This document shows, piece after piece, positions 1 to 22,461 of a stretch of DNA of 22,567 nt; position 1 is the first letter of the stretch; every line of letters begins with the position of its first letter. A program made the translations under genes and the position numbers. This DNA comes from a virus: positions 1 through 22,567 of the IMG/VR virus record IMGVR_UViG_3300030419_004891. One strand, given 5' to 3'. The notes under the pieces are model-generated. The model saw nothing but the letters and a program-made list of their open reading frames with translations, was not told where the DNA came from and searched no databases.

Positions 1-1275
1 TGAAGCCAATCGCTACAGATCGTTCTCCAGAAACATCGGCATAGCCCCCCAAAGCAATAGCACCAAAAGCGTCTGATGTTGCTGATTGACCAATAGCCAT
101 TCCGAAATCCGCAGTAGTACCATCTCCCACTACAGCCGAGTTGCCTATAGCTATGGACTGACCATCATAAGCCTTAGCACTATATCCCAATGCCAGAGAA
201 TTATACCCCTCGGCACGGGAGTTGTGGCCAATAGCCATCGCCTGATTGGTATTGGTATAAGAACTTGTACCTATAGCTATGGTGCGTCTTCCATTCGCAG
301 TAGAACTCGTGCCAATAGCAATAGCATCGAAATCTCCACCCACAGCATAAGCGCTAGAACCTATAGCAATATCATAGGCATATGGATGATTAGTACCCAC
401 CACCGCATTATTACCAATACAAACATTGACACCACTCGTGCGGATATCGTAGACATTGAGGACGCCTGACGGTGTCATAGCGGCTACGTTTGTTCCAGCC
501 GAGTTTTGCCACTGCATCAAATCAGTTGTCTGGGCAGCAGACGCTATCTGGCGGAACTGTTGGCCATTTGGTAATGAGAGATGAGATCCAAACACGCCCG
601 ACAACATAACACTAGTCTGAGCAGAACCAGAAGCTACCACAAAATGCTTTTCGGGAGCAACTACCCCATAACCCAACCCTACAGCAAATTTACCAGCAGC
701 ATTTGCTTGATAACCAATTGCAACACTACCATATTGTGCAGCAGTTCTGGCACCATACAGACACGCCTGAGTAGAATCATATCCTGCTATGTACGCCCCT
801 TGAGTCCCTACTATAGTAGTCATGCTTGCTGTGGTGTTTGTAGCGACGTAGTTTACCTTCTGGCCTATTCCCACCGTGTCAGACCAAGCGCTCACTGCGT
901 ACTGATTGATACCTATCATGACGGCTCTTCGATCAGCGGGAGTGCCGCCAATATTTACAGTACTATCGTGAGCGTCTGCATTATTACCAATAGCAACGGA
1001 CTCGTATCCACCACCGGTGTTGTTGCCTATAACTACTCCATAGGTGCCCTGAGTGTTTGCACCTATAGCTACAAGACCATGGCTCGCAGTAGCTTTTGGG
1101 CCTATGGCTACACCACCATTCGACTGAACCCGCGCGCCTGATCCTATAGCAATACCGAGATCCGAAGTTACATTAGCAGATGTTCCGATAGCTATTGCGT
1201 CATCAGCACTAACATAAGCACCAGAGCCAATACTAACGGGGCCTAGATAATTAGCGTCACCACTGTTGGCGATAA
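1..1275 (-). repeat. Fibre mega-repeat unit C (partial)
   Basis: This third copy is cut by the left edge. It contains YadA-like repeats, a neck module at about 434-640, then further YadA-like repeats (AIALGGYADVSGERSVAIG) reaching the edge. Relative to unit B, the spacing between neck modules is 1695 bp rather than 1572 bp. That fits a different number of short repeats. Confidence 0.8.
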
Positions 1276-4200
1276 TTGTACCGCTCACTACAAGTACGCG
1301 GTCATTCGTAAACGCGGCGTTATTTTTGGCAAACAAGAATTGGGCATCTGCTCCAAAATTAGTTCCGTCAGAGTTATACTGAATCTGATGAATTGCACCA
1401 GCCGCCGAACCACCACCCACAGCAGAACCATTGAAACTCAGCGTTCCGCCGTCATTGTACAACGTGTTTGTTGTGACAGTAGGTGCATTACTCGCAAGGA
1501 CGATGCCAGAGTTACCTACGATAACACCCGTTGCCCGGACCATTGCGCCGTGACCCAATGCGTCAACCGTGTAAGTCGGAACGTTGCCACCAACGGCTAA
1601 TTTCTGGTCATTCGGGATGGCGGTGTAAGAGCCAAACACGCCCGAGATACCAACTTCAGCCGAAGTGTCACCCGATGCAATTACCCAACTCGTACCATGA
1701 GCCTGTGCTTCATAACCAATCGCCACGGACCTCTCTCCAAGAGCATCTGTGTAAGCACCAAGGGCGGTAGCATTTATTCCGGCAGCGGAGCTATCTTTAC
1801 CAAGAGCAATAGTGGTACTAGCACTTGCATTAGCACTTTTTCCTACGGCAATAGCAGCAAAACCACCAGCACTTGCACTGGCGCCAAATGCAGTCGCCTG
1901 ATCGTTGCCGCCGTTTGCGCCCCGCCCCACAACTGTACTCGACATGCCATTAGTGCTAGTACTAGTGCCTACTGCAACACAATATCCACCGCCACCACCT
2001 GCGGTAGTCGCACCACCTCCGATAGCCACATCACCTTGTCCCTGTGCTATTCCCAATAGGGCTATATTTCCACCGCCAACACCACCATAAACAACTTGAG
2101 CATTCGGGCCTAAGCAAACGCTGTGACCACTTGTGCGAATTTCATAAGCGTTGAGGATACCCGAGGGCGTCATCGAGGCGACGTTTGTTCCTGCCGAATT
2201 CTGCCACTGCATAAGATCAGTTGTCTGGGCGGCAGTAGCCATCTGTCTAAACTGTTGACCGTTGGGCATCGTAAGGTGCGTCTTCATAACACCTGACAGT
2301 AACACGTCAGTTAACGCAGAACCAGAAGCCACAACAAACCCGCCATCGGGAGCATGAGCGTAATTCCCTAGAGCCACAGCATGTTCACCTGCTTCTGACG
2401 AAGAACCAAGAGCGGTTCCACGATGTCCCGTTACTTCAGCATAATAACCTATCGCTGTAACGTCCTCTATATTAGTAGAAAGATGCTGCGCCCTATGGCC
2501 AATAGCTACGCTCCTCCTAACCCCGTTGGTATTGTTCCAACCAACCTGCTTGCCAATTGCAATACTGTTACTACCAGCGCGTGCTTGCACCCCTATAGCT
2601 ATAGCTTCCGTCTCGAAGTTTGTGGCCAGATATCCCATAGCCACACCGTTTTGATAAGATGTACACCCAATACCTATAGAAACAGAATTTGTTCCCCAGT
2701 AGTACTTACTTTGAGAGTCCTTACCAATAACAACATTGTTAGGCTGACCTGCGGATGCACCCTTACCAATAACAACATTATTGTCATATCCACCAATAGC
2801 TCCAGATCCAATAACAACCATACCCGGACGAGCAGCGTCGGCGGGATTAGTCACAATCGTACCGCTAACCATGAGAGTAACGTGGTTATCATTATCTCCC
2901 TTAATGCTCGACAGCACTTTGCCACCGGAACTCTTACTCTCAAAGTGAACTTTATTATCCACTATAGCAATACCAGAACCCGCAGTGAGAGAGCTGCCGC
3001 CAATCGCTGACCCGTTCCACTTCAAGTCAGAACCATCTCGGTAAAGCGTATAATCGGTTACCGCAGGAACGTTGTCTGACAAGACGACGCCAGAGTTACC
3101 TACGATAACACCCGTAGCTCGAACCATTGCGCCGTGACCCAATGCGTCAACCGTGTAAGTCGGAACGTTGCCGCCAACGGCGAGTTTCTGATCGTTCGGA
3201 ATCGCAGTGTAAGAGCCGAACACACCCGAAATACCGACTTCAGCCGAAGTGTCACCCGAAGCAATTACCCAGCTCGTACCATGAGCCTGCGCTCTCCAGC
3301 CAATCGCAACTGATCGCTCTCCAATAGCATCTGTATAACCACCAAGAGCAGTCGCACTCCAACCATCCGCAACTGCACCACCACCAATAGCAGTTGCTTG
3401 ATCAGCATTAGCTTTAGCTTCATTACCCATAGCCGTAGCCGTCGAATATTTAGCATCAGATCCATATCCAATAGCCACAGCTCCATAACCCTCAGCTTCC
3501 GCTTGAGATCCCACCGCCGTTGCTTGAGATGACGTAGCTTCTGAGTTGTTACCTATCGCTACAGTGCGTTGGTCGTTTGATTTTGCTGTATTGCCTATAG
3601 CAACTGCGCCAAACGACGCGCCAGCGGCTTCTGCATTCACACCTATGGCAACATCTAAGCTTCCTGTTTCCGCATTGTTTCCGATTGTCACAGAGGTACC
3701 GCTTGTGCGAATGTCGTAGACATTCAAGACACCTGACGGCGTCATAGCGGCTACATTTGTGCCAGCTGAGTTTTGCCACTGCATGAGGTCAGTTGTCTGC
3801 GCCGCCGTTGCCATCTGCCTAAACTGCTGTCCATTTGGCATCGTGAGATGCGTTTTCATAACACCCGACAGCAACACGTCTGTTTGTGCAGAACCAGAAG
3901 CTACAACAAAGTGACCATCGGGAGCAACAGCTTGGTGTCCAAGGGCAATTGCAAATTCACGAGCGACGGTCTTAAAACCAATAGCAACCGAGTGGCCACC
4001 ATGACCCGTAGTGGTATCATTAAATCCAGCCTCTTCACCAATAGCAATACTACGTGCCCCTATAGCGTCGGCCTTATAGCCAATAGCTATACCCTCGCTG
4101 GTTCTTGTTCTTGACTGGCCGCCTATCGCAACACCAGCAAACGCCGCTGAATTAACACCTTTACCAATTGCAATAGATTCATGCGCGGTCGCATTGGCTT

Positions 4201-7200
4201 CTGTCCCTATAGCTATCGCATATTGATCACTCGCCGTATTAGTCTGGCCTATTGCTATACCATTAGTATCGGAAACTATGGAATTTACACCTATAGCAAC
4301 GCCACGAGCAGCGGCACGAGTTTTAGATCCACCGCCATACGTGCCAGCGCCGATAGCAATGGCATTATCACCCGTCACATAAGTGCCAGAACCAATACTT
4401 ACCGGGCTGATGTAGGCGGCGTCACCACTACTCGCTATAATCGTACCACTAACCGCAAGGATATGACTATTCTTATGAACCCCACCTTGACCATCCGTAG
4501 TACGCCAGAAACCGGGATCAGCGCCAAAATTCGCCCCGTCCGCGTTATACTGAACCTGATAAATCGCGCCAGAGGCATTGGTAGTACTACTAGTAGCAGC
4601 TTCCCAATTGGGCACATTACCATTCATAGTCAGAACATGATTATCTGTACCCTTAGCCAGTCTCGTAAAAGTACTGCCATCATGGTAAAGTATGTCACCT
4701 TCGGCATTTGATCCAAAAGTAATATTAGATGTGTTGCCAGAGGCATAAGCCGCCACGCCAGATGCGGAATTAAGTGACAACGCTTCGCCTGAAGCATAAT
4801 TAGCGGTATTGGTGGCGGCAGTTATGTTAGTAGTATTGGTAGAAATGTTAGAAGCGTTAGTGGCGGTTAACCCGGAAGCATATGTCAACGACAGCGCTTG
4901 ACCCGAAGCGTAATTGGCGGTATTAGTAGCCGCTGTTATATTTGTAGTATTGGTTGAAATATTAGAGGCATTAGTGGCAGTTAAGCCAGAGGCATACGTC
5001 AACGATAGCGCCTGACCGGAAGCATAATTAGCAATACCAGAAACAGCAACAATATCACTAGCATTAGTGGTAATATTTGATGCGTTGGTGGCGGTTAGGC
5101 CAGAAGCATAAGTAAGCGACAGAGCTTCTCCAGAAGCATACTGAGCGGTCGGACTCGCCCCACCAGCACTAGCCAACTGAGTCCCATTAAAGTATAAAGT
5201 ACCCGCCACATTATAAAGCGTATTGTCAGTATCAGAAGGAGTACTGCTAGAAAGAACAACACCAGAATTTCCAACATTAACACCACTAGAATATAACCAA
5301 GAATCGAACTGATTAAGTCTACCGTTCTTAACACCACTAAATGATTTATTGGCGTCTAGTATTAGAGCCTTCGACGCTTCTGCGGTGCCATCAGTAGTAA
5401 CATTAACTTGACCAGATGCATACGCCGCCACGCCAGATACATATAAGTCATCATGAGCGTGACCAGATGCATAATGCGCAATGCCTGATACAGCAACTAT
5501 ATCACTAGCATTGGTAGTAATATTGGATGCGTTGGTAGCGGTCAATCCAGACGCATATGTTAATGACAAAGCTTCACCCGAAGCATAATTGGCCGTATTC
5601 GTGACCGCTGTTATGTTGGTTGTGTTAGTTGAAATATTCGACGTGTTGGTCGAAATGTTTGATGCGTTAGTAGCCGTTAGTCCAGAAGCATAAGTTAGCG
5701 ATAAAGCTTGGCCCGAGGCATAATTAGCTGTACTAGTAGCTGCCGTGATATTAGTAGTATTAGTCGAAATATTACTAGCGTTAGTGTTAATAGATGTTCG
5801 TAAAGCCCCAGAAGCCGTAACAATATCAGCAGCATTAGTTGCAATATTAGCAGCATTAGTCAGAGAATTACCAGAAGCATAAGCCGCAACACCTGAAGCA
5901 TAGTTAAGAGATTCAGCCTGTCCTGACCCATATACAGCAATACCAGAAACATAAACTAGCTGCGCAGTTGTTACATCGCCACCCCCTCCAGTAGCAGCTT
6001 CCCACGCAGGAACATTACCATCCATAGTAAGTACATGACTATCTGTACCCTTAGGAAGTCTTGTAAATGATGTACCATTATGATAAAGAATATCGCCCTC
6101 GGCATTTGAACCAAAAGCAATATTAGATGTATTACCAGAGGCGTATGCAGCAACACCAGAAACATATAGATCATCGTGCGCATGACCAGAAGCATAAGCA
6201 GCAATACCAGAAACTGCAACTATATCATCTTTATTTTCAATGGCTTGACCAGAGGCATAATTCGCTATATTGGTCGCAGATGTTATATTAGTCGTATTAG
6301 TGGAAATGTTCGATGTGTTGGTCGAAACATTCGACGTGTTAGTAGAGATGTTCGACGTGTTAGTACTAATATTAGAAGTGTTGGTTGCGATTGCTGTCTC
6401 GTTTTCAATCGCTTGGCCCGACGCATAAACAGCACGCCCAGAAACATAAACCATCTGAGCAGTCGTTACATCACCGATAGTAGATCCGTTGAATTTAAGC
6501 GTTCCACCATCATTGTATAAGGTGTTTGTGGTTACGGAGGGAGTATTACTTGCAAGAACAATACCAGAATTACCAACAATAACACCGCTAATCTGTGCCA
6601 TTCCCTGAACATCCAGATCATAAGCTGGCGATGTATTATTTCCTAACCCCACTCCTAATTTATTTCCAAATCCGATATTTACTCTATCATCATCTTCGTC
6701 AAGCAGTAACATCTGATTACCACCAACAACGAATCTTAATCTATCTTCAGCATCTGTTTCAATCCAAGTTCCCTTGTCTACCTCAAAGTATATTCTTTGG
6801 TCTTGATCTAAGTTTATGTCACCACCAGCGCCAACAACAATACCGGACGCTCCCACATGAATACCACTAGACTGTACCCACGCATCATGACCAACAACAT
6901 CTAACTTATAAGCAGGGGAACCTGTGCCAATACCCACTTTATCATTTGCGGCATCTGTTCTTATAAGGGTTTCATCATTATCCCCCTTTACTACAAAATC
7001 AATATCTGCCGCATTCTCATTAACTGTAACAGTGTCCGGGCTAGAGCCAGCAGATTCATCTAATGTGAGGAATGTTAAGTTACCAGCCACAAAGTCGAAT
7101 TGGTCGCCCCGAAGTCTGATGTAAGTATCGTTATCTCCATTATGATAAATATATTGATCCACATACATATTACCAAAAGTGGGAGTGCCACCAGTCACAA

Positions 7201-8803
7201 CACCTGACGCATAATTCGCAACACCTGATGCCACATTTAATGACGTAGCCTGTCCAGAAGAATATACAGCAATACCTGAAACATAATTTAACTGATCAGT
7301 AGTTACATCACCACTACCAACCTCACCAGAAGCATATACCGCAATACCTGAAACATAGTTTAGCTGCGCGGGAGTAACTGTACCACCACCACCAGCTAAA
7401 GGCGAACCATTCCAGTATAACCCACCACCAACGCTATATAATGTATTAGAGGTAACGGTAGGAGTACTATCGGTAACCTGTAGTCCCGCGCCACTAGCAA
7501 CCAAACCATTAGCAGAAACAATACCAGAATTACTTACACTTGCTAAAATACCATCAGAAGCGTTCACCCATTGAGTAAGATCAGCACTTTGAGCTGCTGC
7601 CGATTTGACAACAACACCCTTATCAGTAGCGGTATTAATACCCACATGAAACGTATCAGAAAGAGTAATATCAGCATTACCAATAGCCACTCTTTTACTA
7701 TCCATGTCACCTTTAATCAAGGTACCCATAGATGATGGAGAAGCATTTCCAATAAATAATAAATCATTACCAGTATTACTTTGCCCAGCAGATTTACCAA
7801 TATAAATACTGTCATTAGCTGTAGAGCTTTTTCCCGCCTCTTTACCAATACCAATAGATCTGGCAGCACCAGTAGAAGAATGACCAGCACCCCTACCAAC
7901 CCATGTTGAATCTACACCACCACCATTGTATCCCGCCTGATAACCAATAATTGTAGCATAGTTATCATTATATGAATTACCCGCTTCCATACCTACCGCA
8001 ACAGAATAACTACCAATACCAGAAGCCGCCTGATACCCCATAGCCACAAAACCAATTTCATAAGCATCAATACCTGCTTGATGTCCTATAGCTGTAGAAC
8101 AATGGCGCATTTTATGGCCAGCTTGATAGCCAACCGAAACAGCGTGATAAACCACAGAAGATGAACCAGCTGCAACCGGACCCGACTGATATCCAATATG
8201 AACATTTTGAGAACCGGTCTGATTTTTAACTGCCGCCTCAGTACCAATGATGACACTTTGATTTGCGCTCGTGACACCGCTACCAGCACCATGACCTATT
8301 AAAATATTACCATTATTAGATGGGCCAGTACTATCACCCACCAATAGACTCTTATTAGTAACATCAAATGAAAGTAAATGAGTAGAAGCGGGAGTTCCAC
8401 TAACATTCACATCATACAGTTCTGTAATTTTGGCATCTTTGATAATTGTCCCATTATCAAAAACTAAACCAGACGCGCCAACAATAGCTTGACTTTCCTG
8501 ATTTCGATAAACACTTTTTTCAGCAGGATAAGTAATAAATACCGTACCACTACCACCTAAGCTGATCTTATTGCCACTATTAGAGCTACCTAATATATAA
8601 TCACGCTCTAGATTACTAGAGCCATAGGTACCAATACCAACTTCCCATTTGTCATTTTCCTCAATGGTATAGTAGGTAATATCACCTGAGCTTAATACAG
8701 AACTAAATGTTTGAAATCCAACCGGACTTCCTGTAAAAGAAATACCCCCAGTACCTGTACTAGAAGTATTTTCCCTTACCCTATCAGCTACTTTAAGAGC
8801 CAT
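1..8803 (-). CDS. Giant phage fibre/adhesin with YadA-head-like repeats (partial, C-terminus off the left edge)
   Basis: ATG at 8803-8801 follows a GGGAG ribosome site. The frame reads without a stop to position 2, giving at least 2934 residues. Residues 1 to about 100 (MALKVADRVRENTSSTGTGG, ending near TYPAEKSVY) match the N-terminus seen in many aquatic-phage tail fibres, probably the virion-attachment end. Residues about 155-370 are a first block of YadA-like head repeats of about 15 residues (pattern S.AIG..A.A.G). Near 400-427 lies a TQWVNASDG-type segment. YASG/YVSG repeats follow, then two segments (about 541-571 and 665-715) of the NGDNDTYIRLRG / DEDDDRVNIG type. About 780-1350 is a long low-complexity stretch of YASG, ALSLTYASG and NTSNIST repeats. 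From about 1400 onward come YadA-like blocks alternating with neck modules. Such left-handed beta-roll and stalk repeats form trimers in YadA adhesins; trimeric receptor binding is inferred. No S74 chaperone-peptidase domain is visible; it could lie beyond the edge. Confidence 0.9.
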   Translation of the reverse strand, partial: MALKVADRVRENTSSTGTGGISFTGSPVGFQTFSSVLSSGDITYYTIEENDKWEVGIGTYGSSNLERDYILGSSNSGNKISLGGSGTVFITYPAEKSVYRNQESQAIVGASGLVFDNGTIIKDAKITELYDVNVSGTPASTHLLSFDVTNKSLLVGDSTGPSNNGNILIGHGAGSGVTSANQSVIIGTEAAVKNQTGSQNVHIGYQSGPVAAGSSSVVYHAVSVGYQAGHKMRHCSTAIGHQAGIDAYEIGFVAMGYQAASGIGSYSVAVGMEAGNSYNDNYATIIGYQAGYNGGGVDSTWVGRGAGHSSTGAARSIGIGKEAGKSSTANDSIYIGKSAGQSNTGNDLLFIGNASPSSMGTLIKGDMDSKRVAIGNADITLSDTFHVGINTATDKGVVVKSAAAQSADLTQWVNASDGILASVSNSGIVSANGLVASGAGLQVTDSTPTVTSNTLYSVGGGLYWNGSPLAGGGGTVTPAQLNYVSGIAVYASGEVGSGDVTTDQLNYVSGIAVYSSGQATSLNVASGVANYASGVVTGGTPTFGNMYVDQYIYHNGDNDTYIRLRGDQFDFVAGNLTFLTLDESAGSSPDTVTVNENAADIDFVVKGDNDETLIRTDAANDKVGIGTGSPAYKLDVVGHDAWVQSSGIHVGASGIVVGAGGDINLDQDQRIYFEVDKGTWIETDAEDRLRFVVGGNQMLLLDEDDDRVNIGFGNKLGVGLGNNTSPAYDLDVQGMAQISGVIVGNSGIVLASNTPSVTTNTLYNDGGTLKFNGSTIGDVTTAQMVYVSGRAVYASGQAIENETAIATNTSNISTNTSNISTNTSNVSTNTSNISTNTTNITSATNIANYASGQAIENKDDIVAVSGIAAYASGHAHDDLYVSGVAAYASGNTSNIAFGSNAEGDILYHNGTSFTRLPKGTDSHVLTMDGNVPAWEAATGGGGDVTTAQLVYVSGIAVYGSGQAESLNYASGVAAYASGNSLTNAANIATNAADIVTASGALRTSINTNASNISTNTTNITAATSTANYASGQALSLTYASGLTATNASNISTNTSNISTNTTNITAVTNTANYASGEALSLTYASGLTATNASNITTNASDIVAVSGIAHYASGHAHDDLYVSGVAAYASGQVNVTTDGTAEASKALILDANKSFSGVKNGRLNQFDSWLYSSGVNVGNSGVVLSSSTPSDTDNTLYNVAGTLYFNGTQLASAGGASPTAQYASGEALSLTYASGLTATNASNITTNASDIVAVSGIANYASGQALSLTYASGLTATNASNISTNTTNITAATNTANYASGQALSLTYASGLTATNASNISTNTTNITAATNTANYASGEALSLNSASGVAAYASGNTSNITFGSNAEGDILYHDGSTFTRLAKGTDNHVLTMNGNVPNWEAATSSTTNASGAIYQVQYNADGANFGADPGFWRTTDGQGGVHKNSHILAVSGTIIASSGDAAYISPVSIGSGTYVTGDNAIAIGAGTYGGGSKTRAAARGVAIGVNSIVSDTNGIAIGQTNTASDQYAIAIGTEANATAHESIAIGKGVNSAAFAGVAIGGQSRTRTSEGIAIGYKADAIGARSIAIGEEAGFNDTTTGHGGHSVAIGFKTVAREFAIALGHQAVAPDGHFVVASGSAQTDVLLSGVMKTHLTMPNGQQFRQMATAAQTTDLMQWQNSAGTNVAAMTPSGVLNVYDIRTSGTSVTIGNNAETGSLDVAIGVNAEAAGASFGAVAIGNTAKSNDQRTVAIGNNSEATSSQATAVGSQAEAEGYGAVAIGYGSDAKYSTATAMGNEAKANADQATAIGGGAVADGWSATALGGYTDAIGERSVAIGWRAQAHGTSWVIASGDTSAEVGISGVFGSYTAIPNDQKLAVGGNVPTYTVDALGHGAMVRATGVIVGNSGVVLSDNVPAVTDYTLYRDGSDLKWNGSAIGGSSLTAGSGIAIVDNKVHFESKSSGGKVLSSIKGDNDNHVTLMVSGTIVTNPADAARPGMVVIGSGAIGGYDNNVVIGKGASAGQPNNVVIGKDSQSKYYWGTNSVSIGIGCTSYQNGVAMGYLATNFETEAIAIGVQARAGSNSIAIGKQVGWNNTNGVRRSVAIGHRAQHLSTNIEDVTAIGYYAEVTGHRGTALGSSSEAGEHAVALGNYAHAPDGGFVVASGSALTDVLLSGVMKTHLTMPNGQQFRQMATAAQTTDLMQWQNSAGTNVASMTPSGILNAYEIRTSGHSVCLGPNAQVVYGGVGGGNIALLGIAQGQGDVAIGGGATTAGGGGGYCVAVGTSTSTNGMSSTVVGRGANGGNDQATAFGASASAGGFAAIAVGKSANASASTTIALGKDSSAAGINATALGAYTDALGERSVAIGYEAQAHGTSWVIASGDTSAEVGISGVFGSYTAIPNDQKLAVGGNVPTYTVDALGHGAMVRATGVIVGNSGIVLASNAPTVTTNTLYNDGGTLSFNGSAVGGGSAAGAIHQIQYNSDGTNFGADAQFLFAKNNAAFTNDRVLVVSGTIIANSGDANYLGPVSIGSGAYVSADDAIAIGTSANVTSDLGIAIGSGARVQSNGGVAIGPKATASHGLVAIGANTQGTYGVVIGNNTGGGYESVAIGNNADAHDSTVNIGGTPADRRAVMIGINQYAVSAWSDTVGIGQKVNYVATNTTASMTTIVGTQGAYIAGYDSTQACLYGARTAAQYGSVAIGYQANAAGKFAVGLGYGVVAPEKHFVVASGSAQTSVMLSGVFGSHLSLPNGQQFRQIASAAQTTDLMQWQNSAGTNVAAMTPSGVLNVYDIRTSGVNVCIGNNAVVGTNHPYAYDIAIGSSAYAVGGDFDAIAIGTSSTANGRRTIAIGTSSYTNTNQAMAIGHNSRAEGYNSLALGYSAKAYDGQSIAIGNSAVVGDGTTADFGMAIGQSATSDAFGAIALGGYADVSGERSVAIGF
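1276..2856 (-). repeat. Fibre mega-repeat unit B (about 1581 bp)
   Basis: This is the second copy of the unit, with the neck module at about 2129-2335 and the second conserved module at about 1496-1715. Its YadA-like stretch between the two modules is glycine-rich (GGVGGGN, TTAGGGGGY) and unlike the equivalent stretch of unit A. The scaffold is therefore conserved while the roll surface has diverged. Confidence 0.85.
2857..4440 (-). repeat. Fibre mega-repeat unit A (about 1584 bp)
   Basis: Unit boundaries are set by a recurring segment encoding VSGTI(I/V), seen on the plus strand as TCGTACC at 4441 and 2857 and TTGTACC at 1276. The spacings are 1584 and 1581 bp, both multiples of three. From N- to C-terminus the unit holds YadA-like repeats, a neck module (3701-3907), more YadA-like repeats, a second conserved module (about 3082-3300) and a linker. 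Copies differ in the number and sequence of the short repeats but keep the reading frame. Confidence 0.85.
4740..6470 (-). repeat. YASG / NTSNIST low-complexity repeat stalk within the fibre gene
   Basis: More than twenty imperfect repeats of YASG, YVSG, ALSLTYASGLTATN and (N/S)ISTNT(S/T)NI occur in one frame. Threonine, asparagine and serine dominate, with isoleucine or valine spaced as in heptad-like stalks. In the DNA this appears as repeated (cc/ca)agaagcata and ttagtagtatt blocks. The stretch probably forms an extended trimeric stalk between the N-terminal attachment region and the YadA-like heads. The structure is inferred; the repetition is directly visible. Confidence 0.75.
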
Positions 8804-19087: not shown

Positions 19088-19882
19088 TTACTCCTTGACT
19101 GTGTCCGCTGTTAGAAATGGCTGATCTACCATTCCGTCCTCATAGTTAGAATATTCTGACAACCGTTCTTTTTCCTTTTCTGTGGCGAGTCGCATTTTTT
19201 CCATCTCGATCCCGATGTGGTTACGGTAAGAGGGATCTGTTGCGATTTTTTTCACAAGCGCCGCAAATGTAAGCTTAGAATCTTCTATGGCTTTAATACG
19301 TTGCTCTCTGGTGCCCTTGAGGTCCTTGAGCATCGTCGCCTTGCGGGCCTGAAGATCCTTATAGTCTTTGGATAGTGTTTCCTGTGAAGCTCTTAGAATC
19401 GCTATCTGGCGCTCCATATTGATGATTAGATCCATGTCGCGCTGATCCTTGTCTCTAGCTTTTTCATCTTGCACCAATCTCTCGTTCATTAGCACCTCTT
19501 GCTGATTATCCATTTGGCTCTTGAGGATACGATTCATAAGAATTTCCAACTTGATAGTATCAATTATCTGCATTTCTTCTGTATGAAACACATCGTCCTT
19601 AAATTGGGACCACATCTTTTTGAAATGAAACTCAAACATTTCCAACTCTTCAGCCGAGAATTGGTTGGATAATTCGCGATAATAAGGTTTCGCCTTTAAT
19701 TCATTAGCTACAGCTGCCTCTTTTTTCTGAGAAGCCGAGAAGCCCACATTCTTTTCAATCCAGTCCCTAATTGAAGCAGGATCGCGATCTAGTTTCTCTG
19801 CGATCTGATCAGGAGAAAGAACCTCGGCTTGCGCCTCGATAAACGACATTTCATCAACGGAGAATCTACCCTTCTTCATCAT
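19088..19882 (-). CDS. HTH / coiled-coil protein, candidate terminase small subunit (264 aa)
   Basis: Residues about 8-45 form a helix-turn-helix-like domain (VLSPDQIAEKLDRDPASIRD, WIEKNVGFS) of the sort that recognises DNA in small terminases. Residues about 95-250 are a long, highly charged helix or coiled coil (DEKARDKDQRDMDLIINMER and on) without enzyme motifs. DNA binding plus oligomerising helix is the small-terminase plan, and no other small-terminase candidate is visible in this packaging cluster, although it is four genes away from terL. Two ATGs (19882, 19879) share the AAGGAG site; the second has the better spacing. The gene overlaps the sigma-like gene by 17 bp. The alternative is a regulator or scaffold-like protein. 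Confidence 0.62.
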   Translation of the reverse strand: MMKKGRFSVDEMSFIEAQAEVLSPDQIAEKLDRDPASIRDWIEKNVGFSASQKKEAAVANELKAKPYYRELSNQFSAEELEMFEFHFKKMWSQFKDDVFHTEEMQIIDTIKLEILMNRILKSQMDNQQEVLMNERLVQDEKARDKDQRDMDLIINMERQIAILRASQETLSKDYKDLQARKATMLKDLKGTREQRIKAIEDSKLTFAALVKKIATDPSYRNHIGIEMEKMRLATEKEKERLSEYSNYEDGMVDQPFLTADTVKE

Positions 19883-20405
19883 ATTCTCCTTCGATTATAC
19901 GTTTAATAACTTCAGTAATATTGGCCTTACGGCTTTTTGGCAGAGATGAGTTTGAGCGTAATTTAAGATAGTCTCCTCTCAGGTGCGCTGGGAGTTTTCT
20001 ATCTATCAAGTCTAGTATCTCCTCTAAATGGGCCTGATCAACGGTTTCATCTCGGGTGGCAATTGAATAGAGGCTATGAATGTCTATGGGTTCAAGGAGG
20101 CTGCGCTTACGGTCCTGTATCTTTTGGGCGTTTCCGTGGTCAAATCTATAATAGTTATCGCGTTTGAAATTCTTCAGGCGGTTATTAATGTGCGTGTAAA
20201 GGAAATTCTCTAGGGGCTTACTGGTGTCGTAACGGTCAAGGGCCTCTATACCCATTAAAAATGCTTCTTGCTGTATATCATCAACATCATATGAGGCAAA
20301 AACATATTTAGGGGCGAGTTTTCGGGCGATTTTATTAATCGTGTTGAGCACCTGTTGCTCACTCAGGTTCTTTGGTATCTTCATCCTCTTTAGTTTCCTC
20401 GGCAA
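19866..20405 (-). CDS. Sigma-70-region-2-like RNA polymerase sigma factor, probable late-gene regulator
   Basis: The segment DVDDIQQEAFLMGIEALDRY, DTSKPLENFLYTHINNRLKN, FKRDNYYR matches sigma-70 region 2 (core binding and -10 recognition). A C-terminal helix-rich part (LPAHLRGDYLKLRSNSSLPK, then ITEVIKRIIEG) may be a reduced region 4. The length of about 180 residues is that of phage late sigma factors such as T4 gp55. The start I prefer is TTG at 20405, with GGAGG 8 nt upstream. An ATG at 20441 in the same frame has no ribosome site, and one at 20384 has GAGG directly against it. The gene overlaps the preceding small gene. It would direct host polymerase to late promoters, an inference from family and context. 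Confidence 0.82.
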   Translation of the reverse strand: MPRKLKRMKIPKNLSEQQVLNTINKIARKLAPKYVFASYDVDDIQQEAFLMGIEALDRYDTSKPLENFLYTHINNRLKNFKRDNYYRFDHGNAQKIQDRKRSLLEPIDIHSLYSIATRDETVDQAHLEEILDLIDRKLPAHLRGDYLKLRSNSSLPKSRKANITEVIKRIIEGEYDEEG

Positions 20406-20529
20406 AAGACAGTCCTCCGGGGGGATCGGGGATATTGGCATCTAATATCTGCTGTACCTCCTCGTCTAGCTGGGCGGTACTTTTAGTATTCAACACGGTG
20501 TCGGCCAATTTGGTGCGTTTGTTACTCAT
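20359..20529 (-). CDS. Small acidic-tailed protein of unknown function (56 aa), first gene of the late operon
   Basis: ATG at 20529 has AAGGAG 5 nt upstream; the longer frame from 20556 has none. The N-terminus is basic (MSNKRTKLADTVLNTK), the middle has a helix (AQLDEEVQQILDANI) and the C-terminus is very acidic (EETKEDEDTKEPE). It overlaps the sigma-like gene and contains that gene's ribosome site, so the two are probably translationally coupled. Small size, charge polarity and pairing with the sigma-like factor could mean a partner or modulator of it, but that is speculation; I recognise no family. Confidence 0.68.
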   Translation of the reverse strand: MSNKRTKLADTVLNTKSTAQLDEEVQQILDANIPDPPGGLSFAEETKEDEDTKEPE

Positions 20530-20798: not shown

Positions 20799-20987
20799 CT
20801 AGCAATCGGGGTCGAAGTCGTGCCACTCCTGCGCCTCATCGGGCTGGCGCTCATCGTTCCAATCGGCTTCGCTATCCACATCGCAATCGTCCGCGACATA
20901 TCCACCACCCGCATCAATGCAGTCCCAATCATAATCTTCGTTGGAATCGGTTTGGCGGTCAAAACGATCAAGAGGATCACAGCTCAT
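20799..20987 (-). CDS. Very acidic small protein (62 aa)
   Basis: ATG at 20987 has GGAG 7 nt upstream; the longer frame from 21017 has no such site. The protein has 23 Asp/Glu residues (18 Asp) against three Arg and no Lys, plus four Cys and several Trp/Tyr spread along it (NEDYDWDCIDAGGGYVADDC; NDERQPDEAQEWHDFDPDC). It is the only gene read from a strong consensus promoter on this strand, so it is probably expressed early. Strong negative charge with aromatic residues is shared with DNA-mimic inhibitors such as Ocr, but this is a resemblance in composition only. The function is unknown. Confidence 0.68.
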   Translation of the reverse strand: MSCDPLDRFDRQTDSNEDYDWDCIDAGGGYVADDCDVDSEADWNDERQPDEAQEWHDFDPDC

Positions 20988-21056: not shown

Positions 21057-21107
21057 GCGCATCAACAACAATTCTATAAAGATATAGCAAAATAAACAAA
21101 GTATTTA

Positions 21108-21184
21108 TAAGTACTTATATACCAACGACTTAGGGCCGCCGGGTGTGCCGCGCCGCACGTAAGTACTTACCACATAACGACTTA
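21108..21184. repeat. Paired 25-bp regulatory repeats, locus 1
   Basis: TAAGTACTTA-N6-AACGACTTA occurs at 21108-21132 and again at 21160-21184, 52 bp apart (about five helical turns). The first ten bases of each are a perfect palindrome, extended to 14 bp at 21106-21119 and 12 bp at 21159-21170. The spacer between the copies is GC-rich in an AT-rich setting. The pair lies between two divergent promoters, as expected for operators. A related pair is found at 22287-22363. Confidence 0.8.
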
Positions 21185-21225
21185 CAACTACTTTGAAAAC
21201 TTTCTAGTTTTTTGTGCAATTAGCA

Positions 21226-21253
21226 TTGACTTCTAAAGTTGATACGCTAAAAT
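21226..21253 (+). promoter_or_regulatory. Rightward sigma-70-like promoter 1
   Basis: TTGACT, 16-nt spacer, TAAAAT. It is followed by GACGATATAAG, a leader sequence repeated after the promoter at 22394-22422. It drives the 71-residue gene starting at 21295. Confidence 0.78.
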
Positions 21254-21294
21254 GACGATATAAGAAACAGGGACATTACTCAAAGGAGAGAGAC

Positions 21295-21510
21295 ATGAAG
21301 AGGATCGACGCAACGGTTTGGACGAGTGACGAACATGATGCCAACATGGTAGGTGATCGCACATGGCTTACCATCCGCATTGGTGACCATGAGATTCTGG
21401 TTAACGTTGACCGATGGGAGATTGATGACGCATTAGAGGATCTGGAAGATGAAAAAGAATCCCAATTAATTCTGGAAAGAATGCGAGCGAGTGACCAAAC
21501 TAGTCACTAG
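21295..21510 (+). CDS. Small early protein of unknown function (71 aa)
   Basis: ATG at 21295 follows AAAGGAGAGAGAC, a strong ribosome site. The protein looks like a small alpha/beta domain: MKRIDATVWTSDEHD, then a beta-rich WLTIRIGDHEILVNVDRW, then an acidic helix (EIDDALEDLEDEKESQLILE). I do not recognise it. It is the first gene of the rightward early series and is read from promoter 1. A hairpin (AGTGAC-caaacta-GTCACT, 21490-21508) overlaps its stop codon. Confidence 0.78.
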   Translation: MKRIDATVWTSDEHDANMVGDRTWLTIRIGDHEILVNVDRWEIDDALEDLEDEKESQLILERMRASDQTSH

Positions 21511-21543
21511 TGTAACCGATAATACTTATAGAAAGGAAAACAA

Positions 21544-21720
21544 ATGATCATCAAAGAAAAGACAATCAAAGTAGCGGACAACCGAAAGCAATGGATTACA
21601 ATGTGGGTCAATGCGAATGGTCAATACTGTATCGGGCGCATTGGGTTTGGCGGAATGCGGATAGCATGGCGCAAAGGACAAAAAAGCTATATCGAAAGAA
21701 TGTGGGAAAATTACGCTTGA
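21544..21720 (+). CDS. Small basic early protein of unknown function (58 aa)
   Basis: ATG at 21544 follows GAAAGGAAAACAA, the same type of ribosome site as the next gene. The product begins MIIKEKTIKVADNRKQWITM and continues through NGQYCIGRIGFGGMRIAWRK to a stop at 21718-21720. It is rich in Lys/Arg and Trp, which may mean nucleic-acid binding, but no family is recognised. The next gene's -35 box (TTGACA) overlaps its stop codon. The overlapping longer frame at 21591-21821 has no ribosome site and runs through that promoter, so it is a shadow. Confidence 0.72.
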   Translation: MIIKEKTIKVADNRKQWITMWVNANGQYCIGRIGFGGMRIAWRKGQKSYIERMWENYA

Positions 21721-21744
21721 CATTCCCTAGCCATACGCTAAAAT
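21717..21744 (+). promoter_or_regulatory. Rightward sigma-70-like promoter 2
   Basis: TTGACA, 16-nt spacer, TAAAAT. It starts inside the last codon of the 58-residue gene and serves the 77-residue gene at 21778. Its spacer end (ATACGC before TAAAAT) is the same as in promoter 1. Confidence 0.8.
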
Positions 21745-21777
21745 TGGGTATCACAACACACTCGAAAGGAAAAACAA

Positions 21778-22011
21778 ATGAACGTCAATCAAATCGAACT
21801 AACCAGAAACACCCGAGTTGAATCCGATACGGATGCATATCACATCCTGTCAAATCAATTCCAGCTTGATCAATACGTTCAACAATTCGGGAATGTCGAA
21901 GTTGTGTGGGATGATGATTGGACAGTGTACCGCGTGCCTAGCTTAGATGCGAAGCGTAATCAATACTGCGAAGCAAAGACGCGCGATTGTGCGCGCTGGG
22001 GTTGTGAATGA
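21778..22011 (+). CDS. Small early protein of unknown function (77 aa)
   Basis: ATG at 21778 follows CGAAAGGAAAAACAA. Visible parts are MNVNQIELTRNTRVESDTDA, a likely helix (YHILSNQFQLDQYVQQFG), a beta-type stretch (NVEVVWDDDWTVYRV) and a basic Cys-containing tail (CEAKTRDCARWGCE). No family is recognised. The stop overlaps the ATG of a 22-codon reading frame (ATGA). Confidence 0.75.
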   Translation: MNVNQIELTRNTRVESDTDAYHILSNQFQLDQYVQQFGNVEVVWDDDWTVYRVPSLDAKRNQYCEAKTRDCARWGCE

Positions 22012-22076
22012 AAATAATTCTATTATGTCTATTGAGCTATGTTGTAGGGTGTGCTATATTACACATGTTCGTTTAA
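22008..22076 (+). CDS. Possible 22-residue membrane or lipoprotein-like peptide
   Basis: This very short frame starts by ATGA overlap with the previous gene, encoding MKIILLCLLSYVVGCAILHM plus FV. It has one Lys, a hydrophobic core and VVGC, which fits a lipobox (Cys15). No separate ribosome site is visible, so it would rely on coupling. A promoter-like TTGAGC-17-TATATT lies within the same bases, so the sequence may be constrained for that reason instead. This is a low-certainty call. Confidence 0.33.
   Translation: MKIILLCLLSYVVGCAILHMFV
22032..22060 (+). promoter_or_regulatory. Rightward sigma-70-like promoter 3 (weaker)
   Basis: TTGAGC, 17-nt spacer, TATATT, 32 bp upstream of the ATG at 22092. 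Both hexamers deviate from consensus, but spacing and position match the neighbouring promoters. Confidence 0.5.
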
Positions 22077-22091
22077 CCTTTGGAGAATGAT

Positions 22092-22304
22092 ATGTTTGAG
22101 AAACTTGACAGCGCTATTCTAGAATTGTTCACGTATCAAGGTAAGACCTTAGCCGAATGGCAAGCTATACAGGACAGGCGAGGCAGAACGGATCATGAGA
22201 TGGAGAAGGATGAGAAGGCTGCAAGGATTGCACAGTATAGGCAATCTATCGAGAGGGGTGATGAACTATCATTCATTCCCCGAGCGCAAACCCTTACGTC
22301 ATAG
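22092..22304 (+). CDS. Small charged early protein of unknown function (70 aa)
   Basis: ATG at 22092 has TTTGGAG with a 6-nt spacing; an in-frame TTG at 22080 has none. The sequence is mostly helical and charged: MFEKLDSAILELFTYQGKTL, AEWQAIQDRRGRTDHEMEKD, EKAARIAQYRQSIERGDELS. No family is recognised. The third copy of the 25-bp repeat (22287-22311) overlaps its last codons. Confidence 0.72.
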   Translation: MFEKLDSAILELFTYQGKTLAEWQAIQDRRGRTDHEMEKDEKAARIAQYRQSIERGDELSFIPRAQTLTS

Positions 22305-22363
22305 GGACTTAGGGGCACGGGGGCCGCCCCGCCGCACGTAACCCCTTATGTAGTAAGGACTTA
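22287..22363. repeat. Paired 25-bp regulatory repeats, locus 2
   Basis: CAAACCCTTA-N6-AGGGACTTA (22287-22311) and TAACCCCTTA-N6-AAGGACTTA (22339-22363) again lie 52 bp apart. Aligned without gaps to locus 1 over 62 positions (21124-21185 against 22303-22364), I count 44 matches, including a 12-base run through CGCCGCACGTAA. A hairpin CCTTA-tgtag-TAAGG is also present. It precedes promoter 4 as locus 1 precedes promoter 1. Confidence 0.75.
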
Positions 22364-22393
22364 CGCTATTTCCTGTATTTTTCTATTTTTTTC

Positions 22394-22422
22394 TTGACGT
22401 GCTCAAGTTTGTATGGTAAAAT
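22394..22422 (+). promoter_or_regulatory. Rightward sigma-70-like promoter 4
   Basis: TTGACG, 17-nt spacer, TAAAAT, followed by TGACGATATAAG, the same leader as promoter 1. It drives the gene starting at 22462. Confidence 0.75.
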
Positions 22423-22461
22423 TGACGATATAAGACAATAGGAAACACGAAAGGAAAAGAC

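Follow-up and report, generated by a model that had tools for sequence, protein, structure and literature searches.

A compound four-half-site element in helical phase with sigma70-type promoters in arrays of uncultivated phages

A DNA element of about 94 bp, repeated along a block of small operons in uncultivated phage contigs, lies upstream of sigma70-type promoters in near-constant orientation and at distances that advance in steps of one helical turn. This orientation and spacing make it very probable that a promoter regulator docks at the element. We consider it likely, judging from sequence features, that the element is an upstream DNA platform for a sequence-specific protein that acts on the promoter downstream, most plausibly as an activator.

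All sequences analyzed were metagenomic contigs. The window, meaning the whole stretch of DNA under study, is a 22,567-base uncultivated-virus record (IMGVR_UViG_3300030419_004891) with a contig GC content of 43%. Its minus strand carries terminase, portal, and head genes, and its plus strand carries small ORFs from 21,295 onward. The terminase and head proteins have only distant matches in phage records, and the portal protein had no match among 50,697 such records; the phage group looks broad and environmental, with no close cultured relative. Part of a small acidic-protein gene (20800-20869) shares 80-86% DNA identity with the Erythrobacter phages vB_EliS-L02 and XM05, and the rest of the surrounding 2.1-kb region has no match to either. 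Positions 1-8500 contain numerous long imperfect direct repeats, for example in 114-nt steps at 4704-5203, and may perhaps encode a repetitive tail or fiber protein.

Anatomy and distribution of the element

The initial annotation of the window described a 25-bp repeat in two pairs. Its pattern, YAA-N4-TTA-N6-A-N2-GACTTA, has exactly the four matches that were described, all on the plus strand, and had none in 100 dinucleotide shuffles of the window. In each pair the starts of the two repeats are 52 apart, as claimed, and the two loci do align without a gap over 62 bases with 44 identities; across the paired repeats, 50 of 77 bases are identical. The repeats are thus present, but the true element is larger, about 93 bp in the window, and every 25-mer has an imperfect palindromic symmetry of its own, YAAnnnnTTR-N5-YAAnnnnTTA.

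Profile matches and the element map place the first element of the array, with its four half-sites and GC-rich core, at 21100-21192 on the plus strand. Pattern matching resolves a promoter-distal imperfect palindrome, TAAGTACTTA-N5-CAACGACTTA (21108-21132), and a promoter-proximal one, TAAGTACTTA-N5-TAACGACTTA (21160-21184), on either side of a core of 89% GC by base composition (21133-21159). A sigma70-like promoter, TTGACT-N16-TAAAAT (21226-21253), has a -10 that begins 55 nt past the element and is closely followed by CGATA (21256-21260), a second promoter-linked motif. The second element (22279-22371, same strand, located in the same way) comprises a promoter-distal repeat (22287-22311), a core of 93% GC (22312-22338), and a promoter-proximal repeat (22339-22363). 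Here the promoter is TTGACG-N17-TAAAAT (22394-22422), with a -10 beginning 45 nt past the element and CGATA close behind it (22426-22430). Both the GC-rich cores and the promoters 3' of each copy had been noted in the initial annotation and are borne out. The two element-to--10 distances differ by one helical turn. A third sigma70-like promoter in the window (21717-21744) has no element upstream.

The consensus drawn from 323 copies whose pairs are 53 bp apart shows four half-sites, TTYGnCGTAAGTnnTTA, arranged as two inverted pairs around the core, with five variable bases within each pair; the whole 94 bp is near-dyad symmetric. The TAA/TTA steps are near-invariant across copies. Pair spacing is most commonly 53 bp, is 52 in the window's clade, and is 48-50 in other lineages, so the exact spacing emphasized earlier (52 or 53) holds inside a clade and not beyond it. 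The proposal of two dimer platforms on one helix face fared similarly: dimer platforms are supported, but with 48-50 spacing in other lineages the two repeats do not follow a strict same-face rule throughout, and the phase-locked distance runs from element to promoter rather than from repeat to repeat. Apparent co-changes of the arms (GTAC to CCCC, AACG to AAGG) fall at positions where most copies differ from one another and are ordinary variation with no paired covariation. Uncultivated phage lineages with a pair spacing of 48, 49, or 50 include L084 (G014), L082 (G015), L091 (G016), L094, and L090, and their arms are nearer to a perfect palindrome.

An IMG/VR scan with a degenerate pair pattern of free gap length matched at least 120 stretches, in which the total pair length was mostly 59 (at least 98 matches) or 58 (at least 34, a count that includes the window copies several times). 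We built a 37-column profile from 110 different copies. At a score cut-off of 8 it gave at least 1879 matches in the pattern-selected loci, counting both strands and overlapping loci, versus 3 in reversed sequence. Merging left at least 970 units, with pairs 53 bp apart (at least 344) or 52 bp apart (at least 58); since these loci were selected for matching, the counts show specificity, not natural frequency. Copies are widespread and position specific in related uncultivated phage contigs. Element copies were found 5' of the terminase gene in all 13 listed terminase relatives with at least about 6.4 kb of sequence there; in several others with 4-6.3 kb of 5' DNA, copies were not reached or are absent.

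Cultured phages were rejected as carriers, consensus BLAST matches being short and mostly confined to the GC core, and the pair pattern was not found in two Erythrobacter phages. Nor is the element evidently of host origin: among 84,980 species genomes seven contigs, from assorted MAGs, turned up, one of which lacked a unit at profile score, and none of 398 genomes from one phylum had the exact palindrome. Conjugative-type plasmids carry a near-identical palindrome as a single copy, TAAGTCGTTGATTTTCAACGACTTA or a close variant, a short way 5' of trwA or of a gene for a mobilization protein (L253 and L254, 2501-2529, in R7K and pHH2-227; L252, 2501-2533, in BPP5P1). This may be coincidence, given the weak BLAST E-values (0.06-0.7), and a search for TrwA homologues, run without a positive control, found none.

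We mapped one contig whole (G002, 230,691 bp), 100,000 of 100,501 bp of a second (G011), and 15-60 kb of nine others. Each of these 11 mapped stretches has one array, and the window's two copies are the first two members of such an array. In the related contigs an array is a single 10-20 kb block in which 8-17 copies follow one another at intervals of about 1 kb, nearly all co-oriented with the genes; each copy separates a small operon from the promoter of the operon after it, and often overlaps or abuts the stop codon of the upstream gene. Orientation is poorly marked in a few copies, and after a DUF932 gene the final copy is sometimes reversed. Where sequence reaches the 5' boundary, it is formed by a conserved minus-strand block containing the genes F2 and F5; the far end in most contigs consists of the DUF932 gene, one further pair, and one to three single units. 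Gene content within the array is variable and gene order mostly preserved, with copies holding their position in related genomes.

Promoter association and helical phasing

Copy orientation was taken from the element alone, with promoters ignored. A sigma70-type promoter lies within 160 nt downstream of 311 of the 384 oriented copies (81%) and upstream of 54, so that pairs do precede promoters, though not always as the initial annotation had wondered; the remaining 73 have no promoter meeting our criteria, and none was assigned to the single units after the DUF932 gene. The promoter model is an E. coli-type consensus, and choosing the best match within 160 nt adds noise.

Distances from the end of the element to the -35 peak at 12, 22, 33, 44, and 56, and those to the -10 peak near 35, 45, 55, 67, and 78 bp, a period of about 10.6. 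Among 151 copies retained after clustering at 72% element identity, the phase coherence R reached 0.59 at a best period of 10.8; the nulls averaged 0.11, and none of the 4000 was as high. As a control, the distance from the -10 to the RBS had a coherence of only 0.16. The phasing persisted (p about 0.0003) after filtering for leader similarity, which left 91 or 54 copies, and was still detected in these filtered sets at distances of 50 or more (p 0.015 and 0.005). In some copies the -10 is over 90 nt away, and at such distances phasing is weak. A helically phased position upstream of a sigma70 promoter, the trait of a class I-like upstream activator site, is thus present.

The promoters also carry a CGAT(A) motif, which lies within the spacer in 97 of 151 cases, just past the -10 in 22, and in both places in none. 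The two CGATA classes seem to favor different halves of the array.

Phasing, position, and orientation together point to an upstream-bound protein in contact with RNA polymerase on one helix face. According to the mechanism that we propose, the four half-sites in their two inverted pairs would bind a protein, probably phage encoded and probably in the form of cooperating dimers. Once bound, this protein would act stereospecifically on the next sigma70-type promoter, most likely activating it by contacting RNA polymerase from upstream. With about 8-17 units per block, a bank of small operons would come under joint control, and these operons may be expressed early. Going further, we tentatively suggest that one dedicated regulator, with some 30-70 half-sites per block, switches the roughly 8-17 small-gene operons jointly, the two CGATA promoter types representing two expression classes. 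If true, such a one-regulator block would be a previously undescribed gene-control system of uncultivated phages.

Repression, folding, and recombination as alternatives

The same phase dependence would fit repression by looping, and the element could be an operator or silencer whose bound protein keeps the array off up to a later stage, through looping or spreading, or protects it against silencing proteins of the host. The many co-oriented copies do resemble the stoperators of cluster A mycobacteriophages (PMC6550527). We regard this reading as unlikely. The promoter itself is left uncovered in nearly all cases, the copies lying upstream of the -35, and activation is favored because copies, rare exceptions aside, leave the -35 free. 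Moreover, no tyrosine or serine recombinase or integrase was detected in the 11 contigs, some of which may be incomplete, in searches whose positive controls matched (PF00589 in 14 of 14 genomes); accordingly, nothing indicates a temperate lifestyle with a need for an immunity repressor.

A structural role is less probable still. The nested dyad symmetry, and the frequent location of the element at or over the upstream stop codon, might indicate a double hairpin or cruciform, a terminator for the upstream operon, or an RNA-processing site between operons, and a conserved RNA or DNA fold had been proposed in the initial annotation. Real copies indeed fold more stably than dinucleotide shuffles (-26.7 vs -20.2 kcal/mol), but no better than column-Markov resamples that preserve only neighbor preferences (p=0.87). 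The dependence joins adjacent columns, not pairing partners: when the suggested covariation analysis was run in relatives, the arms showed no covariation between pairing partners, and the core alone had a slight excess of complementarity. Near-invariant TAA/TTA steps with neighbor-only dependence form a pattern as in protein recognition. An intrinsic terminator was rejected, with a T-run of at least five past the core in just 6% of copies; no Rfam family matches the element. A fold would also not predict helical phasing to the next promoter.

Least probable is a site-specific recombination site or mobile-cassette boundary resembling integron attC or the PeSL of T4-like phages: despite the cassette-like layout, the variable gene content, and an approximately 2-fold enrichment of alignment ends over the element, gene order is mostly kept, the recombinases named above were not found in the 11 contigs, promoter phasing is left unexplained, and similarity between copies is higher at one locus across different phages (0.69) than within one genome (0.60), which indicates inheritance in place.

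Candidate binders and comparison with known systems

F2 (19866-20441, minus strand) has a sigma-70 region 2 only (PF04542, E 1.9e-8) and is conserved beside the array in every related contig that reaches there; the domain suggests that the phage has a sigma-like factor, perhaps serving late genes. F5 (19088-19882, minus strand), also conserved beside the array, has a predicted N-terminal three-helix HTH followed by long helices. F5 is a candidate element binder but could equally be a small terminase, and a fold search returned no confident match. F6, a small protein with a basic tail and a predicted three-helix HTH, occurs at the array start in nine of the 11 mapped contigs and was not found in the window. 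It is also a candidate element binder; the HTHs of small terminases, GcrA, and Myb matched it weakly, none at E<=0.001. Clear relatives of F5 and F6 are missing from the lineages with 48-50 spacing. When the contigs were searched for a T7-type RNA polymerase, the control itself matched nowhere.

We see in these arrays an apparent coordinated regulon in a broad environmental phage group. The element marks the starts of transcription units among small genes of unknown function, and its profile provides a sequence tool for recognizing such phages. Helical phasing, readable from metagenomes alone, yields a bench-testable prediction on the contact between regulator and RNA polymerase.

No named element of this form was found in the open-access literature, in agreement with the initial annotation. 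Class I activator sites, such as those of CRP, are palindromes that keep a helically phased distance from the sigma70 promoter downstream of them. Unlike these, the phage element is a tandem compound of four half-sites confined to phage arrays. It also differs from an integron attC array, in that no integron-type tyrosine recombinase (PF00589) was found in cis in the 11 contigs, which may be incomplete.

Among phage repeats, the ESAS of cluster K mycobacteriophages are 17-nt imperfect inverted repeats with a variable spacer, near the SAS motif GGGATAGGAGCCC at start codons; many intergenic copies lie outside the structural module and are proposed regulators of gene expression (PMC12699233). 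The present element shares the many intergenic inverted-repeat copies outside the structural module and a proposed regulatory role. However, it has two pairs rather than one, clade-fixed spacing, and a GC-rich core, and it is tied to promoters by helical phase rather than to start codons; the sequences are unrelated. Stoperators are repressor sites present in 20-30 copies per genome, mostly in one orientation relative to transcription; they are asymmetric 13-bp sequences, mostly off promoters and scattered through temperate phage genomes (PMC6550527). The element is likewise multicopy and mostly co-oriented, but it is compound, 94 bp long, near-symmetric, confined to one block, and promoter linked in 81% of copies.

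The PeSL of T4-like phages combine an early-type promoter with a stem-loop terminator between small genes in a variable region, and these cassettes mediate gene shuffling (as cited in PMC4503421). A promoter and a palindromic sequence likewise lie between small genes in our arrays, whereas the element lacks fold constraint and terminator features and its copies appear to stay put. In the archaeal halovirus HF2, intergenic repeats of 58 or 29 bp themselves carry promoters (PMC8707807). The element resembles these as a repeated intergenic sequence linked to promoters but differs in lying upstream of a separate sigma70-type promoter. By the features tested, the element would appear to work like an upstream activator site and to fall outside ESAS/SAS, stoperators, PeSL, and the HF2 repeats.
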